A stretch of DNA of 43,798 nucleotides, taken from NCBI GenBank assembly GCA_012959695.1, contig DUCS01000005.1, positions 1-43,798 on the forward strand, read 5' to 3'. The DNA comes from Cycloclasticus sp. Its GTDB lineage: Bacteria > Pseudomonadota > Gammaproteobacteria > Methylococcales > Cycloclasticaceae. The notes below the pieces were generated by a model that did no database searches, was not told the DNA's origin, and worked only from the letters and a program-made list of their open reading frames with translations. Position 1 is the first letter of the stretch. Each line of letters starts with the position of its first letter. The position numbers were made by a program, and so were the translations under genes. Positions 1 through 16,001 of the stretch are shown here, one piece after another.

Positions 1-109
1 CTTTTGCAGCATTAATTGCTTCTTTTACAGACCGTGCGGGTTTTCCTTCCGGAACAGGGACCCCAAATTCAGCAAAAACTTGCTTTGCTTGATATTCATG
101 TAAATTCAT
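1..109 (-). CDS. sucC: Succinyl-CoA synthetase beta subunit, N-terminal fragment
   Basis: The minus strand encodes a protein beginning [20 protein letters not shown], the conserved start of SucC, the ADP-forming succinyl-CoA ligase beta subunit of the TCA cycle. Only the first 36 codons are present; the gene runs off the left edge. The ATG at 109-107 is preceded by AAGGAAG at the expected Shine-Dalgarno distance. The segment seen belongs to the start of the ATP-grasp domain. The sucD partner would lie outside the window. The fragment matches the family start closely, so identity is confident despite its shortness. Confidence 0.93.
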
Positions 110-6906: not shown

Positions 6907-8445
6907 TTACTCGCCGTCGAGCCCATAACCGCCACCACCCGGCGTTTTTATTGTAAGTCGATCCCCAACGTCGACAGCAAGACTGACTTTTGCCTGCAGC
7001 TTTTCCCCGTTTAAAAAGTTCTCGCCTGCCGCTGCATCCGCGCCGCCGTTCAAACCCCAAGGCTGATAATCTCTGCGCTCGGTTAACAACGTCAGTTGCG
7101 CTGCTTGTAAAAACACCATTTCTCTAAGCAAACCATCCCCGCCTTGTTGCTTGCCTGTGCCACCAGAACCTCGCCTGACTTGATAACGGCTAACCCGCAA
7201 CGGGTAATGCATCTCCAGTGATTCAATGGGCGTATTTAAGGTGTTCGTCATGTGCGTCTGCACGGCGGATAGCCCTGCATACTGCGCACCTGCACCCATA
7301 CCGCCACCAATGGTCTCATAATAATTCCAAGAACCTTCCGATGTTCGTGCACCCATTGCGACATTGTTCATGCTTCCGTGACTTGCCGCGGTTATTCTCG
7401 CGGGCAACGCTTTGGCTAACGCGCCCATCACTACATCAACTAACCGCGTACTCGTCTCTACATTACCCGCCGCCACTGCGGCTGGCTTAATTGCATTCAC
7501 TAAGGAGCCATGCGGCGCTTTGATGTCAATACGTCGATAAACACCAAAACACGCGGGCGTATTAGCTGGCAACAAACACCTGAACACGTAATAAACCACC
7601 GCTGCAACCACCGATAAGGGGCAATTGATATTGCCGCTCACTTGATTCGCCGTACCCTTGAAATCCGCGACGACCGTGCCACGCTGCACTGCTAAATTCA
7701 CTTTGATGGGTATGTTTTCAGCGCCTAAGCCATCACCATCCATCCAATCTAAAAAATCATACTCCCCGTCTGGAATGCTCGTTAATAGTTGCTGCATTAA
7801 GCGATCACCGTACGCATTCAAGTGCACCAACGCCGCATTATACTGCTGCGCATCCATCTCCTTAACAATCGATGATAACCGCTGCGACCCTCGTTGGTTG
7901 GCGCTCATTTGCGCATTAAAATCTCCTGTCGATTCAATGGTATTTTGCAAGACACGCATAATCTCATCAAATTCAACTGAAGTTTTACCCTCGCGCATGA
8001 TTTTAACCGGCGAAATAATGATGCCTTCTTGCTCAAGGTTTGTGGCTAACGGCATGGAGCCCGGCGTATCCGAACCGATATCGGCATGGTGCGCACGGTT
8101 GGCAACAAAACCAATTAATTTCTCATCGGCGTGCACTGGGCAAACCAAGGTCACATCCGGTAAGTGCGTGCCGCCCAAATAAGGGTCATTAAACGCCACC
8201 ATGTCACCTGGCTGCCAATCAAACTGATCGACAATGTCTTGCATGGCATACGCCATACTACCTAAATGTACAGGAATATGTGCCGCCTGGGCGCAAAGCT
8301 GCCCTTGCGTATCAAACACCGCGCATGAAAAATCTAGCCGGTCTTTTATATTAGGCGAGAAGGCGGCGCGTTGTAATACCGCGCCCATTTCATCGCACAC
8401 TGACTCGATTCGGCTGGAAAAAACACTTAACTCAATGGCGTCCAT
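6907..8445 (-). CDS. Hydantoinase B / oxoprolinase family protein, orphan
   Basis: The 512-aa protein belongs to the HyuB family, the second subunit or domain of ATP-dependent hydantoinases, 5-oxoprolinases and acetone-carboxylase-like enzymes. Typical motifs are present: SPNIKDRLDFSCAVFD near the N-terminus, FNDPYLGGTHLPDV, NRAHHADIG and a Gly-rich C-terminus ending PGGGGYG. Family members normally pair with an ATP-binding HyuA, but the neighbours here are grxD and the divergent argD. The substrate cannot be told. The ATG at 8445 is used; the upstream region is shared with argD. Confidence 0.85.
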   Translation of the reverse strand: MDAIELSVFSSRIESVCDEMGAVLQRAAFSPNIKDRLDFSCAVFDTQGQLCAQAAHIPVHLGSMAYAMQDIVDQFDWQPGDMVAFNDPYLGGTHLPDVTLVCPVHADEKLIGFVANRAHHADIGSDTPGSMPLATNLEQEGIIISPVKIMREGKTSVEFDEIMRVLQNTIESTGDFNAQMSANQRGSQRLSSIVKEMDAQQYNAALVHLNAYGDRLMQQLLTSIPDGEYDFLDWMDGDGLGAENIPIKVNLAVQRGTVVADFKGTANQVSGNINCPLSVVAAVVYYVFRCLLPANTPACFGVYRRIDIKAPHGSLVNAIKPAAVAAGNVETSTRLVDVVMGALAKALPARITAASHGSMNNVAMGARTSEGSWNYYETIGGGMGAGAQYAGLSAVQTHMTNTLNTPIESLEMHYPLRVSRYQVRRGSGGTGKQQGGDGLLREMVFLQAAQLTLLTERRDYQPWGLNGGADAAAGENFLNGEKLQAKVSLAVDVGDRLTIKTPGGGGYGLDGE

Positions 8446-8455
8446 ATCGTATTAG

Positions 8456-8484
8456 TTGCTGATTTTGATTAGTAGAATTATAAT
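8456..8484 (+). promoter_or_regulatory. Sigma-70 promoter upstream of argD
   Basis: TTGCTG (8456-8461), a 17-bp spacer and a perfect -10 TATAAT (8479-8484). Transcription would start near 8491, about 125 nt before the argD ATG. It lies in the 170-bp gap between the divergent hyuB-like gene and argD and probably drives the arg/ilv block. Confidence 0.6.
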
Positions 8485-8500
8485 GATACTTCAACACAAC

Positions 8501-8531
8501 AGGCAGTCTTATTAGGCTGCCTTCGTTTTTT
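8501..8531 (+). terminator. Terminator-like hairpin in the argD leader
   Basis: A 6-bp stem (AGGCAG 8501-8506 with CTGCCT 8517-8522) with a 10-nt loop is followed by TCG and six T residues. It lies about 10 nt after the predicted start site and about 85 nt before argD. It could attenuate the arg operon or belong to a very short transcript. I found no leader peptide before it, since there is no room. The stem is short, so confidence is modest. Confidence 0.4.
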
Positions 8532-8615
8532 GTACCATTAATGTAAATGAGGCGAATACGTTTGCCCGCATTCACGCCAAGATTTGCCCAACAAAGGCAA
8601 ACAACAGAGATTATT

Positions 8616-9782
8616 ATGAAACAACATATCATGCCAACGTATGCTTCCTTACCCGTTCGCTTTATTAAAGGCGAAGGCGCTTGGCTATGGGATGATAAGG
8701 GCGAAAAATACCTCGACGCATTATCGGGTATTGCTGTTTGCGGCTTAGGTCATGCTCACCCTGAAATTGCAGACGCCATCAGTAAACAAGCCAATACATT
8801 GCTGCACACATCAAATTTATACGCCATTGATAATCAAGAGCAACTGGCTAACACCTTGTGCGAGTTAACTGGCATGAACGATGTGTTTTTTGGCAATTCT
8901 GGCGCCGAAGCAAATGAAGCAGCGATAAAAATTGCTCGCCGCTTTGCACACAGTAAAAATATTGAAAATCCCGTCATTGTGACGATGAACAACAGCTTTC
9001 ATGGGCGAACATTAGCGACACTTACCGCTACCGGCAATCCAAAAGTGAAAGAAGGCTTCGCACCTTTACCTGAAGGCTTTTGCCATATACCTTATAACGA
9101 CATCCCTGCGTTGGAGACGTTGGCAAGCCGAGAAAACACAATTGTTGCGGTGATGGTTGAGCCGATTCAAGGCGAAAGCGGCATTCGCATTCCCGATGCT
9201 GACTATTTAAACAAATTGCGCGAACTCTGCGACCAGAACGATTGGCTATTAATATTGGATGAAATTCAAACCGGTATTGGCCGTACCGGCAGCTTTTTAG
9301 CTAGCCAACAAAACAACATCAAGGCCGATGTGGTGACACTCGCCAAAGCACTTGGCAATGGCGTACCTATTGGCGCGTGCTTAACGGCCGGTAAAGCAAC
9401 CGGCTTGTTAACAGCCGGCTCTCATGGTTCCACATTTGGCGGCAATCCATTGGCTTGCGCTGCCGCACTCACGGTCATCAACATTATCCAACGCGATCAT
9501 TTAGCCGACAGGGCAATTGAGCTTGGCGAACGTATACGCGCATCGTTTCAACATGCCTTAAGCGGCTGTAAACATGTTGTTGAAATCAGGCAAAAGGGAT
9601 TGATGATTGGCATCGAACTGACAACCCCTTGCACCGAACTTGCCAGCAAGGCCTTAGAGCAACACCTACTAATTAACGTTGCCGGTGGAAATACCGTGCG
9701 CCTCCTACCACCACTGACCATTAGCAATAAAGAAGCGGATAAAATAACCCAGCTGGTTAGCGACTTAATTATTGCCCACTAA
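8616..9782 (+). CDS. argD: Acetylornithine aminotransferase
   Basis: ArgD is a class III PLP aminotransferase of arginine synthesis that can also serve lysine synthesis. Seen are the substrate-domain opening [11 protein letters not shown], the PLP-phosphate binding [13 protein letters not shown], the [10 protein letters not shown] segment, [15 protein letters not shown] and the catalytic lysine in [13 protein letters not shown]. The ATG at 8616 starts at the usual place and gives 388 aa. An in-frame ATG at 8547 would add 23 residues not expected in the family. It begins the plus-strand block argD-argF-SH3-ilvD-argE, with only 26 nt to argF. Confidence 0.95.
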
Positions 9783-9808
9783 CCCATTCTTTCTGTACAG
9801 TAGCCACA

Positions 9809-10711
9809 ATGAAACCACGTCATTTTATTACCCTTAACGACCTCAGTGCCGACGAGTTGCGCGCTATTATTCAACGCGCCATAGAATTAAAGAAAATGCG
9901 TGCTGACGGCGCGATTTACGAGCCGTTAAAAAATAAAGTGCTGGCCATGATTTTTGAAAAATCATCCACCCGCACACGTATTTCATTTGAAGCCGGTATG
10001 GCTCAATTTGGTGGTGCCGCCTTATTTTTATCCCCACGTGATACGCAACTAGGTCGTGGCGAACCCATCGAAGATTCTGCGCGCGTTATTTCTCGCATGG
10101 TCGATGGCATCATGCTACGCACCAACGACCATGAAACGGTTACCACCTTTGCGCAACATTCTAACGTACCCGTTATTAACGGACTAACCGACCGGTTCCA
10201 CCCTTGCCAATTGCTGGCTGATTTGCAAACTTGGTTTGAACAACGTGGCGACATTAAAGGTAAACGAGTTTGCTGGATTGGCGATGGCAATAACATGTGT
10301 CAATCGTACATGAATGCAGCCAAATTATTAGACTTCAAACTGGCAATTGCCTGCCCCGCTGGTTATGAGCCCGAGCAAGCCTTGTTAGACGAAACATCTA
10401 GCCACGTTAAATTATTTCACGACCCTAAACAAGCCGTTATTGACGCTGACCTAGTGGTTACCGACGTATGGGCCAGTATGGGCCAAGAAGAAGAGCAAAA
10501 AAGCCGCGAAAAAGATTTTGCTGATTTCCAAGTTAATTCAGCACTCATGGCTCTCGCTAAACCAGACGCCATGTTTATGCATTGTTTGCCTGCACATCGC
10601 GGCGAAGAAGTCAGCACTGAGGTGCTGGATGGCGGCCAAAGTGTTATTTGGGATGAAGCAGAGAACCGCTTACATGCTCAAAAAGCGTTACTTGAATTTT
10701 TAATGAAATAA
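9809..10711 (+). CDS. argF: Ornithine carbamoyltransferase
   Basis: Makes citrulline from ornithine and carbamoyl phosphate. The 300-aa protein carries the carbamoyl-phosphate motif SSTRTR, the [12 protein letters not shown] segment, the ornithine-side DVWASMGQE and the catalytic HCLPAHRG. The length is that of the short anabolic form. The gene follows argD by 26 nt and precedes the SH3-domain gene by 24 nt, so they are probably co-transcribed. Confidence 0.96.
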
Positions 10712-10735
10712 ACCCTGTTTATCGAAGGATCACCT

Positions 10736-11401
10736 GTGAAAAAAATACTCTTAGCTATTGCTCTTTTAACCAGCACTGCCATTATGGCTGAATCAGCATA
10801 CGTTTCAGACGAGCTTGAAATTATGGTTCGTTCTGGCAAAAGTTCTGGCCATCGCATTATCGCCACATTGAAAAGCGGCAAAAAAATCAATGTCATTGAG
10901 CGTGATTCGGCCTCTGGTTACTCTCGCGTTAAACTCAGTCCATCACGTGAAGGCTGGGTACTATCAAGGTTATTACGTAAAACTCCTTCCGCTAAATCAC
11001 GCCTAGCAAAAGCGGAAGCATCATTGGCCAGTTTAAAAACAAAATTCAGCAGCTCCAGCAAACAGCTAAGCGAACTAAGCGAACAAAAAGGTAATTTAGA
11101 CAGCGAAGCCAGTACGCTCAAGACTGACAATATTTCTTTATCTCGCGAACTGGACCAACTTAAAGAAACATCCAGAAACGCTGTTGAGATTTTGCAAGAA
11201 CGAAACCAACTTCAGCAGCGCGTTGTAACCATTGAACGCGAACTTGAAAGCTTAAAAAGAGACAATGACACCTTGGTTAACAGCGACGTACAAGACTGGT
11301 TTTTAGCCGGCGCAGGCGTTTTGTTATTCGGTATTATTCTCGGCTTTATTCTACCTAAGCTGGGCTGGCGCAAGAAAACATCTTGGCAATCATCATTCTA
11401 A
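10736..11401 (+). CDS. SH3-domain membrane protein, TIGR04211/YgiM type
   Basis: The 221-aa protein has a Sec signal peptide (about residues 1-18, ending IMAES), a bacterial SH3 domain (about 20-80, with VRSGKSSGHRIIATLKSG and REGWVLSRLL) and a long coiled coil (about 85-180). One C-terminal transmembrane helix (about 187-207) is followed by a short basic tail. This is the layout of the TIGR04211 family, related to E. coli YgiM, whose function is not settled. It starts with GTG behind AAGGA at a 6-nt spacing. Its place between argF and ilvD has no clear metabolic reason. Confidence 0.88.
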   Translation: MKKILLAIALLTSTAIMAESAYVSDELEIMVRSGKSSGHRIIATLKSGKKINVIERDSASGYSRVKLSPSREGWVLSRLLRKTPSAKSRLAKAEASLASLKTKFSSSSKQLSELSEQKGNLDSEASTLKTDNISLSRELDQLKETSRNAVEILQERNQLQQRVVTIERELESLKRDNDTLVNSDVQDWFLAGAGVLLFGIILGFILPKLGWRKKTSWQSSF

Positions 11402-11422
11402 ATTCATACACACGAGCACACT

Positions 11423-13108
11423 ATGTCCGACAAAAAAAATAACAGTAGAAAATTTTCATCCCTAGTCGTCGACGGTATGGAGCGCGCACCAAGCCGCGCC
11501 ATGCTTCACGCTGTAGGCTTTAAAGACGAAGATTTCAAAAAGCCGCAGGTTGGCGTTGCCTCTACTTGGGCCATGGTCACCCCATGCAATATGCACATTA
11601 ACGGTCTAGCTGACGAAGCCGTTCGCGGCGTAGATCAAGCTGGCGGCAAAGGCGTTATATTTAATACCATCACTATCTCAGACGGTATTTCAATGGGCAC
11701 GGAAGGCATGAAATATTCACTGACCTCTCGTGAAGTGATTGCCGATTCAATTGAAACCGTTGTTGGCTGCCAAGGCTTTGATGGCGTGGTGGCTATTGGT
11801 GGCTGCGATAAAAACATGCCTGGTTGCATGATTGCCTTAGTGCGTTTAAACCGCCCTAGCGTGTTTGTTTACGGCGGCACCATTTTATCTGGCTGTCACA
11901 AACAACGTAAGCTCGATGTTATCTCAGTGTTCGAGGCCGTTGGCGCACGCGCAAACAACCTCATTGATGATGAAGAGTTACATGCCATTGAATCAAAAGC
12001 GATTCCTGGCGCAGGATCATGTGGCGGTATGTACACGGCCAACACCATGGCATCTGCCATTGAAGCAATGGGCATGAGCTTACCCAACAGTTCAGCGCAA
12101 GCCGCTATTTCTGCAGATAAAAAACAAGACTGTAAAGACGCTGGCGAAGCGGTGTTAAAATTGCTTGAGTTGGACATTAAGCCTCGCGACATAATGACCC
12201 GAAAAGCCTTCGAAAATGCAATCACTGTGGTGATTGCATTAGGCGGCTCAACCAACGCAGTACTCCACCTGCTGGCCATGGCACACAGCGCCGAAGTTGA
12301 TTTACAGCTAACTGATTTCACAACTATTGGTAAACGCGTACCCATGGTGGCCGATTTAAAACCAAGCGGCAAATACTCTATGGCGGAGCTGATTGATATT
12401 GGCGGCATCCAACCGTTAATGAAAATCTTATTGGGCGCGGGCTTACTACACGGCGATTGCTTAACCGTCACCGGCAAAACCTTGGCTGAAAACTTGGCTG
12501 ACGTTGCCCCGTACCCAGATAACCAAGATGTTATTCGCTCGTTAGACAACGCCATTAAAAAAGACAGCCACCTCGTTGTGCTACACGGCAATCTTGCAAG
12601 TGGTGGTGCGGTTGCAAAAATTACGGGTAAAGAAGGCTTAGGTTTCACCGGCACAGCACGCGTGTTTAATTCCGAAGAAGAATCCATGGCCAGCATTCTT
12701 GATGGTTCAATTAAAGAAGGCGATGTACTGGTTATACGTTACGAAGGCCCCAAAGGCGGACCCGGTATGCGAGAAATGCTAGCGCCCACATCCGCGATTA
12801 TGGGCCGCGGTTTAGGCGATAAAGTGGCGTTTATTACAGACGGTCGTTTCTCCGGCGGCACCCACGGTTTTGTGGTGGGCCATATCACCCCTGAAGCTTT
12901 CCAAGGCGGTGCTATCGCTATCGTTGAAGACGGCGACACCATCTCCATAGACAGTGTTAAAAATGAATTGCGCTTACACTTAGATGACGAGGTCATTCAG
13001 CAGCGCCTTGCTAATTGGACACAGCCAGAACCGCGCTATACACGTGGCGTGCTGTCTAAATACGCCAAACTTGTACGCTCTGCATCTGAAGGCGCCGTTA
13101 CTGATTAA
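11423..13108 (+). CDS. ilvD: Dihydroxy-acid dehydratase
   Basis: IlvD makes the 2-oxo acids that precede valine, leucine and isoleucine. The cluster-binding cysteines sit in [17 protein letters not shown] and [13 protein letters not shown], and the C-terminal part holds [13 protein letters not shown]. At 561 aa it is the shorter form, which in studied members usually carries a [2Fe-2S] cluster; that detail is by family analogy. It follows the SH3 gene by 21 nt and precedes argE by 18 nt. Confidence 0.96.
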
Positions 13109-13126
13109 TGACGTTGGTCGCTAACA

Positions 13127-14290
13127 TTGATTAAGCTCCCTAATACGCTGGACATGATGCGTGCCCTAATCGGCACGCCATCTGTCAGCAGCACAAACGA
13201 TAGGCACGACCAAAGCAACCTGCCCGTTATTCACTTGCTGGCCGATTGGCTAGAGAACCTAGGGTTCAAGGTCAGTCTTCAACCACTTGTCGGTCAAGAA
13301 GGCAAAGCCAACTTAATAGCAACCATTGGTCCTACTCATAAGGGCGCAGACGGGTTGATTTTGTCTGGCCATACTGACACGGTTCCGTACGACGACAGCC
13401 ATTGGTCGCAAGACCCTTTCACGCTAACCGAAAAAGACAATAACTTTTACGGTTTAGGCAGTACCGACATGAAGTCATTTTTTGCGTTGGCAATAGAAAC
13501 AGCCGCAAAATTTAACGCATCCGATTTCAAGCGACCGTTGACCATTCTCGCAACCGCTGATGAAGAAAGCGCCATGAGTGGTGCGCAAGCTTTATTAAAA
13601 GAACAACTTCAACACGCGAAATATGCCGTTATTGGCGAACCAACCAACTTAACGCCGATTCGCATGCACAAAGGCGCGATGATGGAGTCGTTAATCGTCA
13701 CTGGGCACGCTGGGCACTCAAGCAACCCTAGCCTAGGCGCCAGCGCTACCGAAGGTATGCACCAAGTTATCAATGAACTACTTCGCTGGCGTGAAGAGTT
13801 ACAAGCTAAACACAATAACCCCGTGTTTGAGGTTTCATCACCGACCATGAACATTGGCTCTATTCACGGTGGCGACAACCCAAACCGTATTTGCTCGCAT
13901 TGTGAAACTCAAATTGATATTCGGCCTCTACCCGGCATGGACATCAACGCTATCCGCGCCGATTTACAAAAACGACTCGCTGACGTACTGCCTGAAAGCA
14001 GTAAATTAAAGCTCGCCTACAAACCCATTTTTTGTGGCGTTCCGCCTTTCGAAACACCTGCCGACGCCAAACTAACCCGAATGATTGAATCCATTACCGG
14101 CAAAACCGCGGAGTCAGTTGCCTTTGGTACCGAAGCGCCCTATTTAACTAACCTGGGTATCGACACCCTTGTGATTGGACCCGGCAACATTGATCAAGCA
14201 CATCAACCCAACGAATATATTCCAGGCGAACAAATCACGCCTTACTGCAACTTTTTGCAAACACTTGTTCACAATATTTGCATAAAGTAG
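13127..14290 (+). CDS. argE: Acetylornithine deacetylase
   Basis: An M20-family zinc hydrolase that releases ornithine from N-acetylornithine. Metal and catalytic motifs are seen: LSGHTDTVPYDD, GLGSTDMKSFF, ATADEESAMSGA, IGEPTNL and a C-terminal FGTEAPYL and PGNIDQAHQPNEY. The TTG start at 13127 is chosen because the first residues (IKLPNTLDMMRALIGTPSVS) match the start of E. coli ArgE; no ATG fits as well. Its presence with an ArgA implies the linear rather than the ArgJ cyclic route to ornithine. Confidence 0.94.
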   Translation: MIKLPNTLDMMRALIGTPSVSSTNDRHDQSNLPVIHLLADWLENLGFKVSLQPLVGQEGKANLIATIGPTHKGADGLILSGHTDTVPYDDSHWSQDPFTLTEKDNNFYGLGSTDMKSFFALAIETAAKFNASDFKRPLTILATADEESAMSGAQALLKEQLQHAKYAVIGEPTNLTPIRMHKGAMMESLIVTGHAGHSSNPSLGASATEGMHQVINELLRWREELQAKHNNPVFEVSSPTMNIGSIHGGDNPNRICSHCETQIDIRPLPGMDINAIRADLQKRLADVLPESSKLKLAYKPIFCGVPPFETPADAKLTRMIESITGKTAESVAFGTEAPYLTNLGIDTLVIGPGNIDQAHQPNEYIPGEQITPYCNFLQTLVHNICIK

Positions 14291-14328
14291 CAAAAACACA
14301 ATATTTTCTTAGGCAATCTCTTTTTATT

Positions 14329-14357
14329 TTGCGTTTTTTGCAATAAAAGATTAAAAT
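14329..14357 (+). promoter_or_regulatory. Sigma-70 promoter of argA
   Basis: TTGCGT (14329-14334), a 17-bp spacer and TAAAAT (14352-14357). Only six bases (14358-14363) separate the -10 from the ATG, so a start at the normal distance would give a leaderless or nearly leaderless mRNA. No Shine-Dalgarno is present. An imperfect inverted repeat (TTTTATT and AATAAAA arms about 14322-14349) overlaps the promoter and could be an operator. Confidence 0.5.
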
Positions 14358-14363
14358 TTCCGC

Positions 14364-15908
14364 ATGTCAAACAATGCAGCTCACATTATCCAGCAGTTTG
14401 GTGGCGTCAAATCACTTGCTCTTGCCATTAACAAAGACCCCGCAACCATCTACCGCTGGACCTACCCAAAACATAAAGGCGGCACTGGCGGCCTTGTGCC
14501 AAGGTCTGCTTTAAAGAAAATTCACGCTGCAGCGCAGTTATTGAACATCACGCTTGATGTTGACAAACAAAGTCCAGACTCCCTAACCCATACGCCTCAC
14601 CCCCACCAATTCGTCAATTGGTTTCGAAACACCGCGCCCTATATTCACGCTCATCGCGGTAAAACATTTGTTATCAACTTCAGCGGTGAGGCTGTTGATG
14701 ATGATACGTTTTCAACCTTAATTGAGGACTTAGCTTTATTAAACAGCTTGGGTATTCGCTTAATTCTGGTTCATGGCATTCGCCCGCAGCTCGAAAAAAA
14801 GATAGCTGCTAAAAAGCGTACCAGCCATGTATTTCAGCACTTACGCGTTACGGACAAAGAAACGCTTGAAATGGCCAAAGAAGCAACGGGGACAGTCCGC
14901 ACCAACATAGAAGCGATGTTGTCTACCAGCTTAGCGAATACGCCGATGGCTGACTCAAGCATACGCGTCGCCTCAGGCAACTTCATTACCGCAAAACCGT
15001 TGGGCGTTATTAACGGCGTAGATTACCAATTTACCGGTGAAACCCGCCGTGTAGATTGCAATGCCATATCAAGCACTCTAGATTCTGGGCACATTGTTTT
15101 GGTTTCCCCGATAGGCTACTCACCCACTGGCGACGTATTTAATCTCCGTAGCGAAGAAATTGCCACCGCCATTGCCACGGACATTAACGCTGACAAATTA
15201 ATTTTAATGACCGAGTGCAATGAATTATTAAGTCAGGACAAACAACTTATTCGGCAATTAACCACCGACCAAGCTCAAGTGTTATTGGATAAGAAAAACC
15301 ACCAATACAACGATACGAGCCTCCACCTACAAGAAGCAATACGCGCCAGCAAACTGGGCGTAGAACGCATCCACTTGATCGACCGAAAAATTAACGGTGG
15401 ACTCCAATTAGAATTATTTACACGTGAAGGCGCAGGGACTCTCATTAGCACTCAGCCGTTTGAAGATGCGCGGCCTGCAACCATCGATGACATTCACGGC
15501 ATCCTCGACCTCATTCGCCCACTTGAAGCGCATGGTTTACTTACCTACCGCCCTGCTGAAACGATTGAAATGGACATCGAAAAGTTTCACGTTATTGAGC
15601 AAGACGGTTTAATAACCACTTGCGCCGCGCTTTATGCGTACCCAGAGGATGCCATCGGCGAGCTAGCCTGCGTTGCGGTACACCCTAATTACCGCACGGG
15701 TGAACGCGGCGATTACCTGTTAACACTGATTGAAAAAGAGGCTCGCTCGAAAGGCTTAACTCGGTTGTTCGTACTCACCACACAAAGTAGCCATTGGTTT
15801 GCTGAAAAAGGCTTTAAACCTGCTGTGATTGCTGATTTGCCGAAAGCAAAACGAGATAACTACAATCAAACTCGACGCTCAAGCGTGCTCATCAAAAAAC
15901 TAGCATAA
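14364..15908 (+). CDS. argA: N-acetylglutamate synthase with fused N-terminal helix-turn-helix domain
   Basis: The first step of arginine synthesis. Residues from about 80 on align with E. coli ArgA throughout: an amino-acid-kinase-like domain (about 80-330, with HRGKTFVINFSGEA, LGIRLILVHG and RVASGNFITAKPLGV) and a GNAT acetyltransferase domain (about 365-514, with ELACVAVHPNYR and LFVLTTQSSHWF). The protein is 514 aa against 443 for E. coli. The extra N-terminus (about 5-65) reads as a small Cro/YdaS-like helix-turn-helix, ending in the motif WTYPKHKGGTGGLVP, as in short phage-type DNA-binding proteins. No usable ATG or GTG start lies between the two parts, so the fusion looks real. It could repress its own promoter or other arg genes in response to arginine; that is inference. 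Confidence 0.9.
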   Translation: MSNNAAHIIQQFGGVKSLALAINKDPATIYRWTYPKHKGGTGGLVPRSALKKIHAAAQLLNITLDVDKQSPDSLTHTPHPHQFVNWFRNTAPYIHAHRGKTFVINFSGEAVDDDTFSTLIEDLALLNSLGIRLILVHGIRPQLEKKIAAKKRTSHVFQHLRVTDKETLEMAKEATGTVRTNIEAMLSTSLANTPMADSSIRVASGNFITAKPLGVINGVDYQFTGETRRVDCNAISSTLDSGHIVLVSPIGYSPTGDVFNLRSEEIATAIATDINADKLILMTECNELLSQDKQLIRQLTTDQAQVLLDKKNHQYNDTSLHLQEAIRASKLGVERIHLIDRKINGGLQLELFTREGAGTLISTQPFEDARPATIDDIHGILDLIRPLEAHGLLTYRPAETIEMDIEKFHVIEQDGLITTCAALYAYPEDAIGELACVAVHPNYRTGERGDYLLTLIEKEARSKGLTRLFVLTTQSSHWFAEKGFKPAVIADLPKAKRDNYNQTRRSSVLIKKLA

Positions 15909-16001
15909 TGAAACCGCTGGCTTAATCACAACATTCTTCAAATCATGTTGTCTATACTTAAGCAAACAAGATACGAGACTAGAAACAATTTCGACCTATT
16001 T

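Follow-up and report, generated by a model that had tools for sequence, protein, structure and literature searches.

The window analysed here is a stretch of 43,798 nucleotides from Cycloclasticus, an oil-degrading bacterium, in which a single open reading frame of 514 amino acids with an ATG start occupies positions 14364–15908, adjoining the argD-argF-ilvD-argE block. The gene and the features upstream of it are listed in Table 1. The original prediction had read the frame as a single one of 514 codons, the C-terminal 435 or so being classical N-acetylglutamate synthase (NAGS, ArgA) and residues 1–65 a helix-turn-helix (HTH) domain, and both parts of this reading are borne out, with the same architecture recurring in congeners.

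Table 1. Features of the fused argA gene and its upstream region (positions are those of the window).
Feature	Position	Strand	Basis or remark
17-bp palindrome TTTGCGTTTTTTGCAAT, putative HTH-ArgA operator	14328..14344	.	19 nt upstream of ATG
Putative sigma-70 promoter TTGCGT-17-TAAAAT	14329..14357	+	Consensus match only; left arm of the palindrome supplies the -35 box
Cro-like helix-turn-helix, residues 1–65	14364..14558	+	NF046037 just below cut-off, AlphaFold2, Foldseek
Helices of the Cro-like domain, residues 5–12, 15–22, 26–31 and 47–59			AlphaFold2 model
Linker, residues ~66–78, unconserved	14559..14597	+	Low identity, high pN/pS
N-acetylglutamate synthase, residues 79–514	14598..15908	+	NF003641, PDB relative, arginine motif
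Parts of the synthase: N-terminal helix, amino-acid-kinase domain with arginine site (K278, E350–T359), GNAT domain

NF003641, the NCBIfam equivalog model for amino-acid N-acetyltransferase, matches residues 79–513 at 613 bits, its cut-off being 344, and the best solved relative of the enzyme part in a PDB search is the NAGS of Neisseria gonorrhoeae (E 1.9e-92). According to PMC4490483, the arginine-binding motif of NAGS is E-(L/I)-(F/M)-(T/S)-X-X-G-X-G-T, together with a key lysine and glutamate; aligning the window's ArgA to the N. gonorrhoeae enzyme places this motif at E350LFTREGAGT359 and the lysine at K278, and neither the motif's fixed positions nor the key Lys and Glu vary among 16 species. 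A model of the whole fusion (pLDDT 78.9, residues 67–92 and 352–354 being modelled with low confidence) also has N. gonorrhoeae NAGS as its best fold matches. The protein is thus like classical bacterial ArgA (NF003641/TIGR01890) over residues 79–513, with the arginine motif kept, but adds an N-terminal Cro-like domain and an operator-like palindrome at its own promoter. At the sequence level, 14364–15908 is confirmed to encode a genuine HTH-ArgA fusion.

The Cro-like domain and its conservation

The NF046037 ('carph-isopro') model matches residues 5–65 with 36.9 bits when residues 1–79 are searched alone and with 30.6 bits in the whole protein, and since these scores lie under its 38-bit cut-off, which the ArgA domain does not reach, we refer to the domain as carph-isopro-like. 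The same region matches the Pfam families P22_Cro (PF14549; 19.9 bits, gathering cut-off 30.2) and YdaS (12.5 bits, cut-off 30), in both cases below the cut-off, and a Pfam search found no Arg_repressor match anywhere in the protein. The domains of 15 of 16 species match a phage 'transcriptional regulator' family, with a best E-value of 1.5e-5 and a value of 0.031 for the window's own domain; a sequence profile of the domain compared with PDB chains gave no match better than E 0.4.

Modelled alone with AlphaFold2, the domain is predicted to form four helices (mean pLDDT 91.5, pTM 0.79), and the top nine Foldseek matches to this model are all phage Cro or Cro hybrid proteins, with probabilities of 0.87–1.00, query TM-scores of 0.50–0.61 and E-values of 0.075–0.61, none being at 0.001 or better. 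The best PDB matches are 3bd1, 6on0, 2hin and 1rzs (Xfaso 1, N15 both free and bound to operator DNA, and P22). The predicted fold may be that of phage Cro of the P22 and N15 kind, from which the ArgA domain differs in being fused to an enzyme, in lying outside a phage context and in scoring under the Pfam cut-off; the expectation of an HTH fold in residues 1–65 agrees with a four-helix model whose best matches are phage Cro, the NF046037, P22_Cro and YdaS scores falling below their cut-offs. In the predicted recognition helix (26–31), all but one of the six residues are identical throughout 16 species, and the remaining one is almost constant.

The fusion is a feature of the genus. A full-length search finds HTH-ArgA in 16 of 18 Cycloclasticus genomes, and in one further genome the fusion is interrupted by a contig end (L047/L089), giving 17 of 18; in the last (G010, 83% complete) no argA was found. 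Elsewhere in the order 293 genomes were searched, none of which has the HTH domain in an ArgA-length frame and seven of which have weak domain matches in frames of 52–345 amino acids, and in a class-wide sample the domain is matched in two of 369 genomes, both Cycloclasticus. Of the 101 genomes searched for the enzyme, 83 are from outside Cycloclasticus, and 80 of these have an ArgA match, with a kinase-like match only in the other three. The match starts at residues 73–82 in 70 of the 80 and earlier, at residues 20–72, in the remaining ten, seven of which have an internal stop codon and three of which do not (G059, G077 and G083).

Within the genus, mean pairwise identity among 16 species is 0.68 for the HTH (residues 1–65), 0.16 for the linker (residues 66–80), and 0.71 and 0.74 for the two enzyme domains, and the corresponding mean pN/pS values are 0.30, 0.82, and 0.25 and 0.23. 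By these measures, purifying selection acts on the HTH as it does on the enzyme, but not on the linker.

The palindrome upstream of argA

In fused argA genes the palindrome has the consensus TTTGCGT-N3-ACGCAAA, from which the window's copy departs at two positions. In a search of the 150 nt upstream, 14 of the 17 fused argA genes have it with at most two mismatches and 16 with at most three, where dinucleotide shuffles lead to expectations of 0.27 and 2.07 of 17, respectively; the species are related, and this consensus, like those of the two other fusions described below, was derived from the same sequences on which it was counted. The palindrome lies 11–24 nt from the argA start, and in the seventeenth fused gene (L015) an additional base at the centre makes it 18 bp long. 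In an alignment of the upstream regions the TTGC columns do not vary at all and the GCAA columns hardly do, in contrast to the flanks, and in one genome (G003) where argE was not found between ilvD and argA the palindrome is still kept.

Fourteen of the 80 unfused ArgA genes served as controls, and none has the 17-bp site with at most two mismatches and one has it with at most three, although these genes are from other families and visibly richer in G+C; a looser 15-bp pattern is present within two mismatches in three of the 14. When palindromes in the last 60 nt are scored without a consensus, the value is barely above that of shuffles (5.41 against 5.06, sd 0.19), and in the AT-rich DNA upstream of argA this score is nearly uninformative; the case for an operator rests on the conservation of the block, the comparison with unfused argA genes and the parallel fusions to CarA and LeuA. 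The set-derived consensus, the weak consensus-free score and the G+C-richer controls weaken the statistics, and the parallel with CarA and LeuA restores much of their strength.

A promoter-like pattern, TTGCRW-N16..18-TANNNT, is present in all 16 upstream regions tested and begins at the left arm of the palindrome in 14 of them; in L010 and L013 the palindrome is nearer to the start and more half-sites are found upstream. A further perfect half-site is present in the 60 nt upstream in eight of the 17 fused genes, compared with 3.6% of 60-nt pieces, mostly coding, taken at random from the window. The suggestion that argA's own promoter would be a likely target is accordingly matched by a conserved palindrome lying over the putative promoter.

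Related fusions to CarA and LeuA

The name 'carph-isopro' suggests carbamoyl-phosphate and isopropylmalate, and domains of this family are found N-terminal on the small subunit of carbamoyl-phosphate synthase (CarA) and on 2-isopropylmalate synthase (LeuA). In a phylum sample, NF046037 matches in 94 of 398 genomes at E 0.001, 14 of them above the cut-off. The identity of the enzyme was confirmed with NCBIfam for two of each kind (L103 and L148; L158 and L160) and was read from the translations for others (CarA in L102, L104, L105 and L106; LeuA in L098 and L100). The domain is present in 74 of 80 sampled genomes of one family, mostly in CarA-length frames, and in one order 19 of 150 genomes have it with an E-value no higher than 1e-10, every frame being of 593–650 amino acids. 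Other strong matches are to short stand-alone proteins. We also note two long frames with a strong match (L099 and L101) that belong to neither CarA nor LeuA; downstream of the domain their sequence is of low complexity and looks like coiled coil.

Both fusions have palindromes of their own. Among 34 HTH-CarA genes, comprising 29 loci of one family (from 30 of its 80 listed places, L128–L157) and five phylum-sample loci (L102–L106), TGGGAA-N5-TTCCCA is present within 200 nt upstream with at most two mismatches in 33, where shuffles give 0.40; the best site of L137 has four mismatches, and L140, whose start is mis-set at a contig end and whose best site has three mismatches, was left out of the set. 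Two or more sites at up to three mismatches are found in 32 of the 34 regions, 27 of these 32 having a spacing of 37–40 bp. Upstream of HTH-LeuA genes (L098, L100 and L158–L174), TTWGACA-N3-TGTCWAA is found within 200 nt at up to two mismatches in 17 of 19, with 0.10 in shuffles and at distances from the domain start varying between 52 and 137 nt; among 17 unfused LeuA genes from the same order, none has it at up to two mismatches and one (L205) has it at three. None of the ArgA, CarA and LeuA motifs occurs in another set at up to two mismatches, and three HTH variants, each with its own 17-bp palindrome, are what would be expected from self-binding. HTH-CarA and HTH-LeuA are thus like HTH-ArgA in having a similar N-terminal domain before a biosynthetic enzyme and a palindrome upstream, but they differ in the enzyme, in the half-site, and in an HTH that is without the G-G-T-G-G of ArgA.

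This G-G-T-G-G stretch, absent from the aligned CarA and LeuA domains, is shared by ArgA with some stand-alone forms (L110 and L115, with similar stretches in L240 and L241). Among the stand-alone relatives are a phage gene annotated as cro, a Cro-like gene of a phage that is divergent to the gene of a CI-like repressor, and a gene on a Rhizobium plasmid that is divergent to an XRE regulator; the latter two have G-G-[TA]-D-G, which is near to the ArgA stretch. In a small-domain tree (57 rows, 70 columns) the CarA domains form one group (96/91) and the LeuA domains another (97/87), and ArgA groups with stand-alone forms, with weak deep splits (71/90) and a long-branch warning. The ArgA HTH is probably of phage origin, and a separate capture of the domain by each of ArgA, CarA and LeuA is suggested by these groupings.

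Proposed mechanism, alternatives and flanking region

We consider it likely that HTH-ArgA is an autogenous enzyme-repressor, in which a Cro-type HTH on a complete NAGS acts at the palindrome of its own promoter. Read from the sequence, the gene combines a DNA-binding-type domain on an enzyme with a candidate operator at that enzyme's promoter, as in a trigger enzyme. HTH-ArgA would bind the 17-bp palindrome overlapping its own promoter and block transcription of argA. In NAGS the arginine site adjoins the N-terminal helix, and in the N. gonorrhoeae enzyme arginine moves this helix and the hexamer ring widens by ~10 Å (PMC4490483). In the fusion a short linker joins the HTH to what is expected to be this helix (residues 80–89 in the model, at low confidence), so that arginine probably changes the geometry of the HTHs in the hexamer. 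Arginine-bound hexamers may then present HTH pairs that fit the palindrome, and arginine would be a co-repressor, which at high levels would shut off production of the enzyme as well as inhibiting it; the reverse, with arginine as an inducer, is also conceivable.

The original prediction had gone further and proposed a one-protein regulator that represses argD-argF-ilvD-argE as well as argA and replaces ArgR, which now appears improbable. The position of argA beside the arg block fits such a role, as does the failure to find Arg_repressor_C (PF02863) in the window's own genome or its 17 congeners. However, the domain is absent from all 101 genomes searched, fused or unfused (the same search giving a match in 8 of 14 control genomes), and since ArgR is missing equally from the unfused relatives, nothing can be inferred about its replacement by the fusion. 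The argD block is not supported as a target, with an argA-type site at up to three mismatches in none of 13 argD upstream regions. The window's own genome, which is 80% complete and covers the arg promoters in part, has 46 sites at up to two mismatches compared with 33 for a reversed-pattern control, and so is without a clear regulon; an arg regulon was rejected on these two results. With the strict pattern, 28 loci (L032–L059) were examined out of 75 places listed in 18 genomes, and of these seven are argA promoters, 19 lie within mechanical ORFs of at least 60 amino acids, and two are intergenic (L041 and L048), adjoining what look like dioxygenase genes. The palindrome is therefore likely, on the distribution of its copies, to have a role in argA autorepression rather than in control of the pathway.

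It is quite unlikely that the palindrome is the site of an unrelated transcription factor, with the HTH either having another role, such as DNA anchoring, or having lost DNA binding. The borderline profile score of the HTH leaves room for this, and the binding of HTH-ArgA to the palindrome is something that we infer from sequence, but the palindrome tracks the fusion (16 of 17 fused genes compared with 1 of 14 unfused at up to three mismatches), each of the three HTH-enzyme fusions has a different site, and the predicted recognition helix is almost wholly invariant. We give very little credence to the HTH being a functionless appendage, or being untranslated with the enzyme starting downstream. 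The window does have internal GTG and TTG codons (residues 45 and 60), both weak, and the earlier statement that no good start codon lies between the domains holds in part; four of 16 species (L007, L008, L009 and L014) have no ATG, GTG or TTG from the HTH start to about residue 100, and production of an enzyme lacking the HTH is hard to envisage there. The pN/pS of the HTH, close to that of the enzyme, likewise argues against an idle domain.

Autorepression by HTH-ArgA may be one instance of a wider design. The pathways of ArgA, CarA and LeuA are those of arginine, of arginine and pyrimidines, and of leucine, respectively, and CarA and LeuA are feedback-controlled steps; ArgA is likewise a feedback-controlled step (PMC4490483). 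The three fusions point to a recurrent class of biosynthetic enzymes in which a captured phage Cro domain would repress the enzyme's own gene. On balance we favour the broader view that at least three enzymes (ArgA, CarA and LeuA) took up a phage Cro-type domain, probably separately, and evolved 17-bp operators of their own, becoming single-protein, single-promoter feedback circuits in which repression of the gene would be set by the same end product that inhibits the enzyme.

The DNA-binding domain and the enzyme of PutA and BirA are both different from those of HTH-ArgA, which, compared with trigger enzymes of this type, probably has a single target promoter. PutA and BirA each unite an enzyme and a transcriptional repressor in one protein (PMC6978683), and with such enzyme-repressors known the principle is not new. 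A literature search of titles and abstract openings found no report on HTH-ArgA, HTH-CarA or HTH-LeuA, and likewise none on the HTH-ArgA operator or its link with CarA and LeuA. If the proposal is true, HTH-ArgA gives bacteria that lack ArgR a self-contained circuit for controlling a gene of arginine synthesis, and it exemplifies a more general design whereby the addition of a phage Cro domain makes a metabolic enzyme its own repressor. The three fusions and three palindromes would form a natural set from which to read how Cro-type recognition helices choose their DNA, and HTH-enzyme fusions could be a ready module for building enzyme-coupled feedback.

The arg block has further features. Between argF and ilvD lies a gene for a TIGR04211-family SH3-domain protein (10736–11401), a relative of which is present in 14 of the 15 genus upstream stretches, the fifteenth being too short to show it. 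The argD leader (8460–8530) has a TATAAT-type promoter followed, ~16 nt past the -10 box and before argD, by a terminator-like hairpin; Rfam gives no match in 8300–16000. The hairpin, GGCAGYC...GGCTGCC followed by a T-rich stretch, is found in 11 of 13 regions and is weaker or absent in L188 and L189; by eye, L177 and L179 have paired changes in it, and from its sequence it looks like an attenuator.
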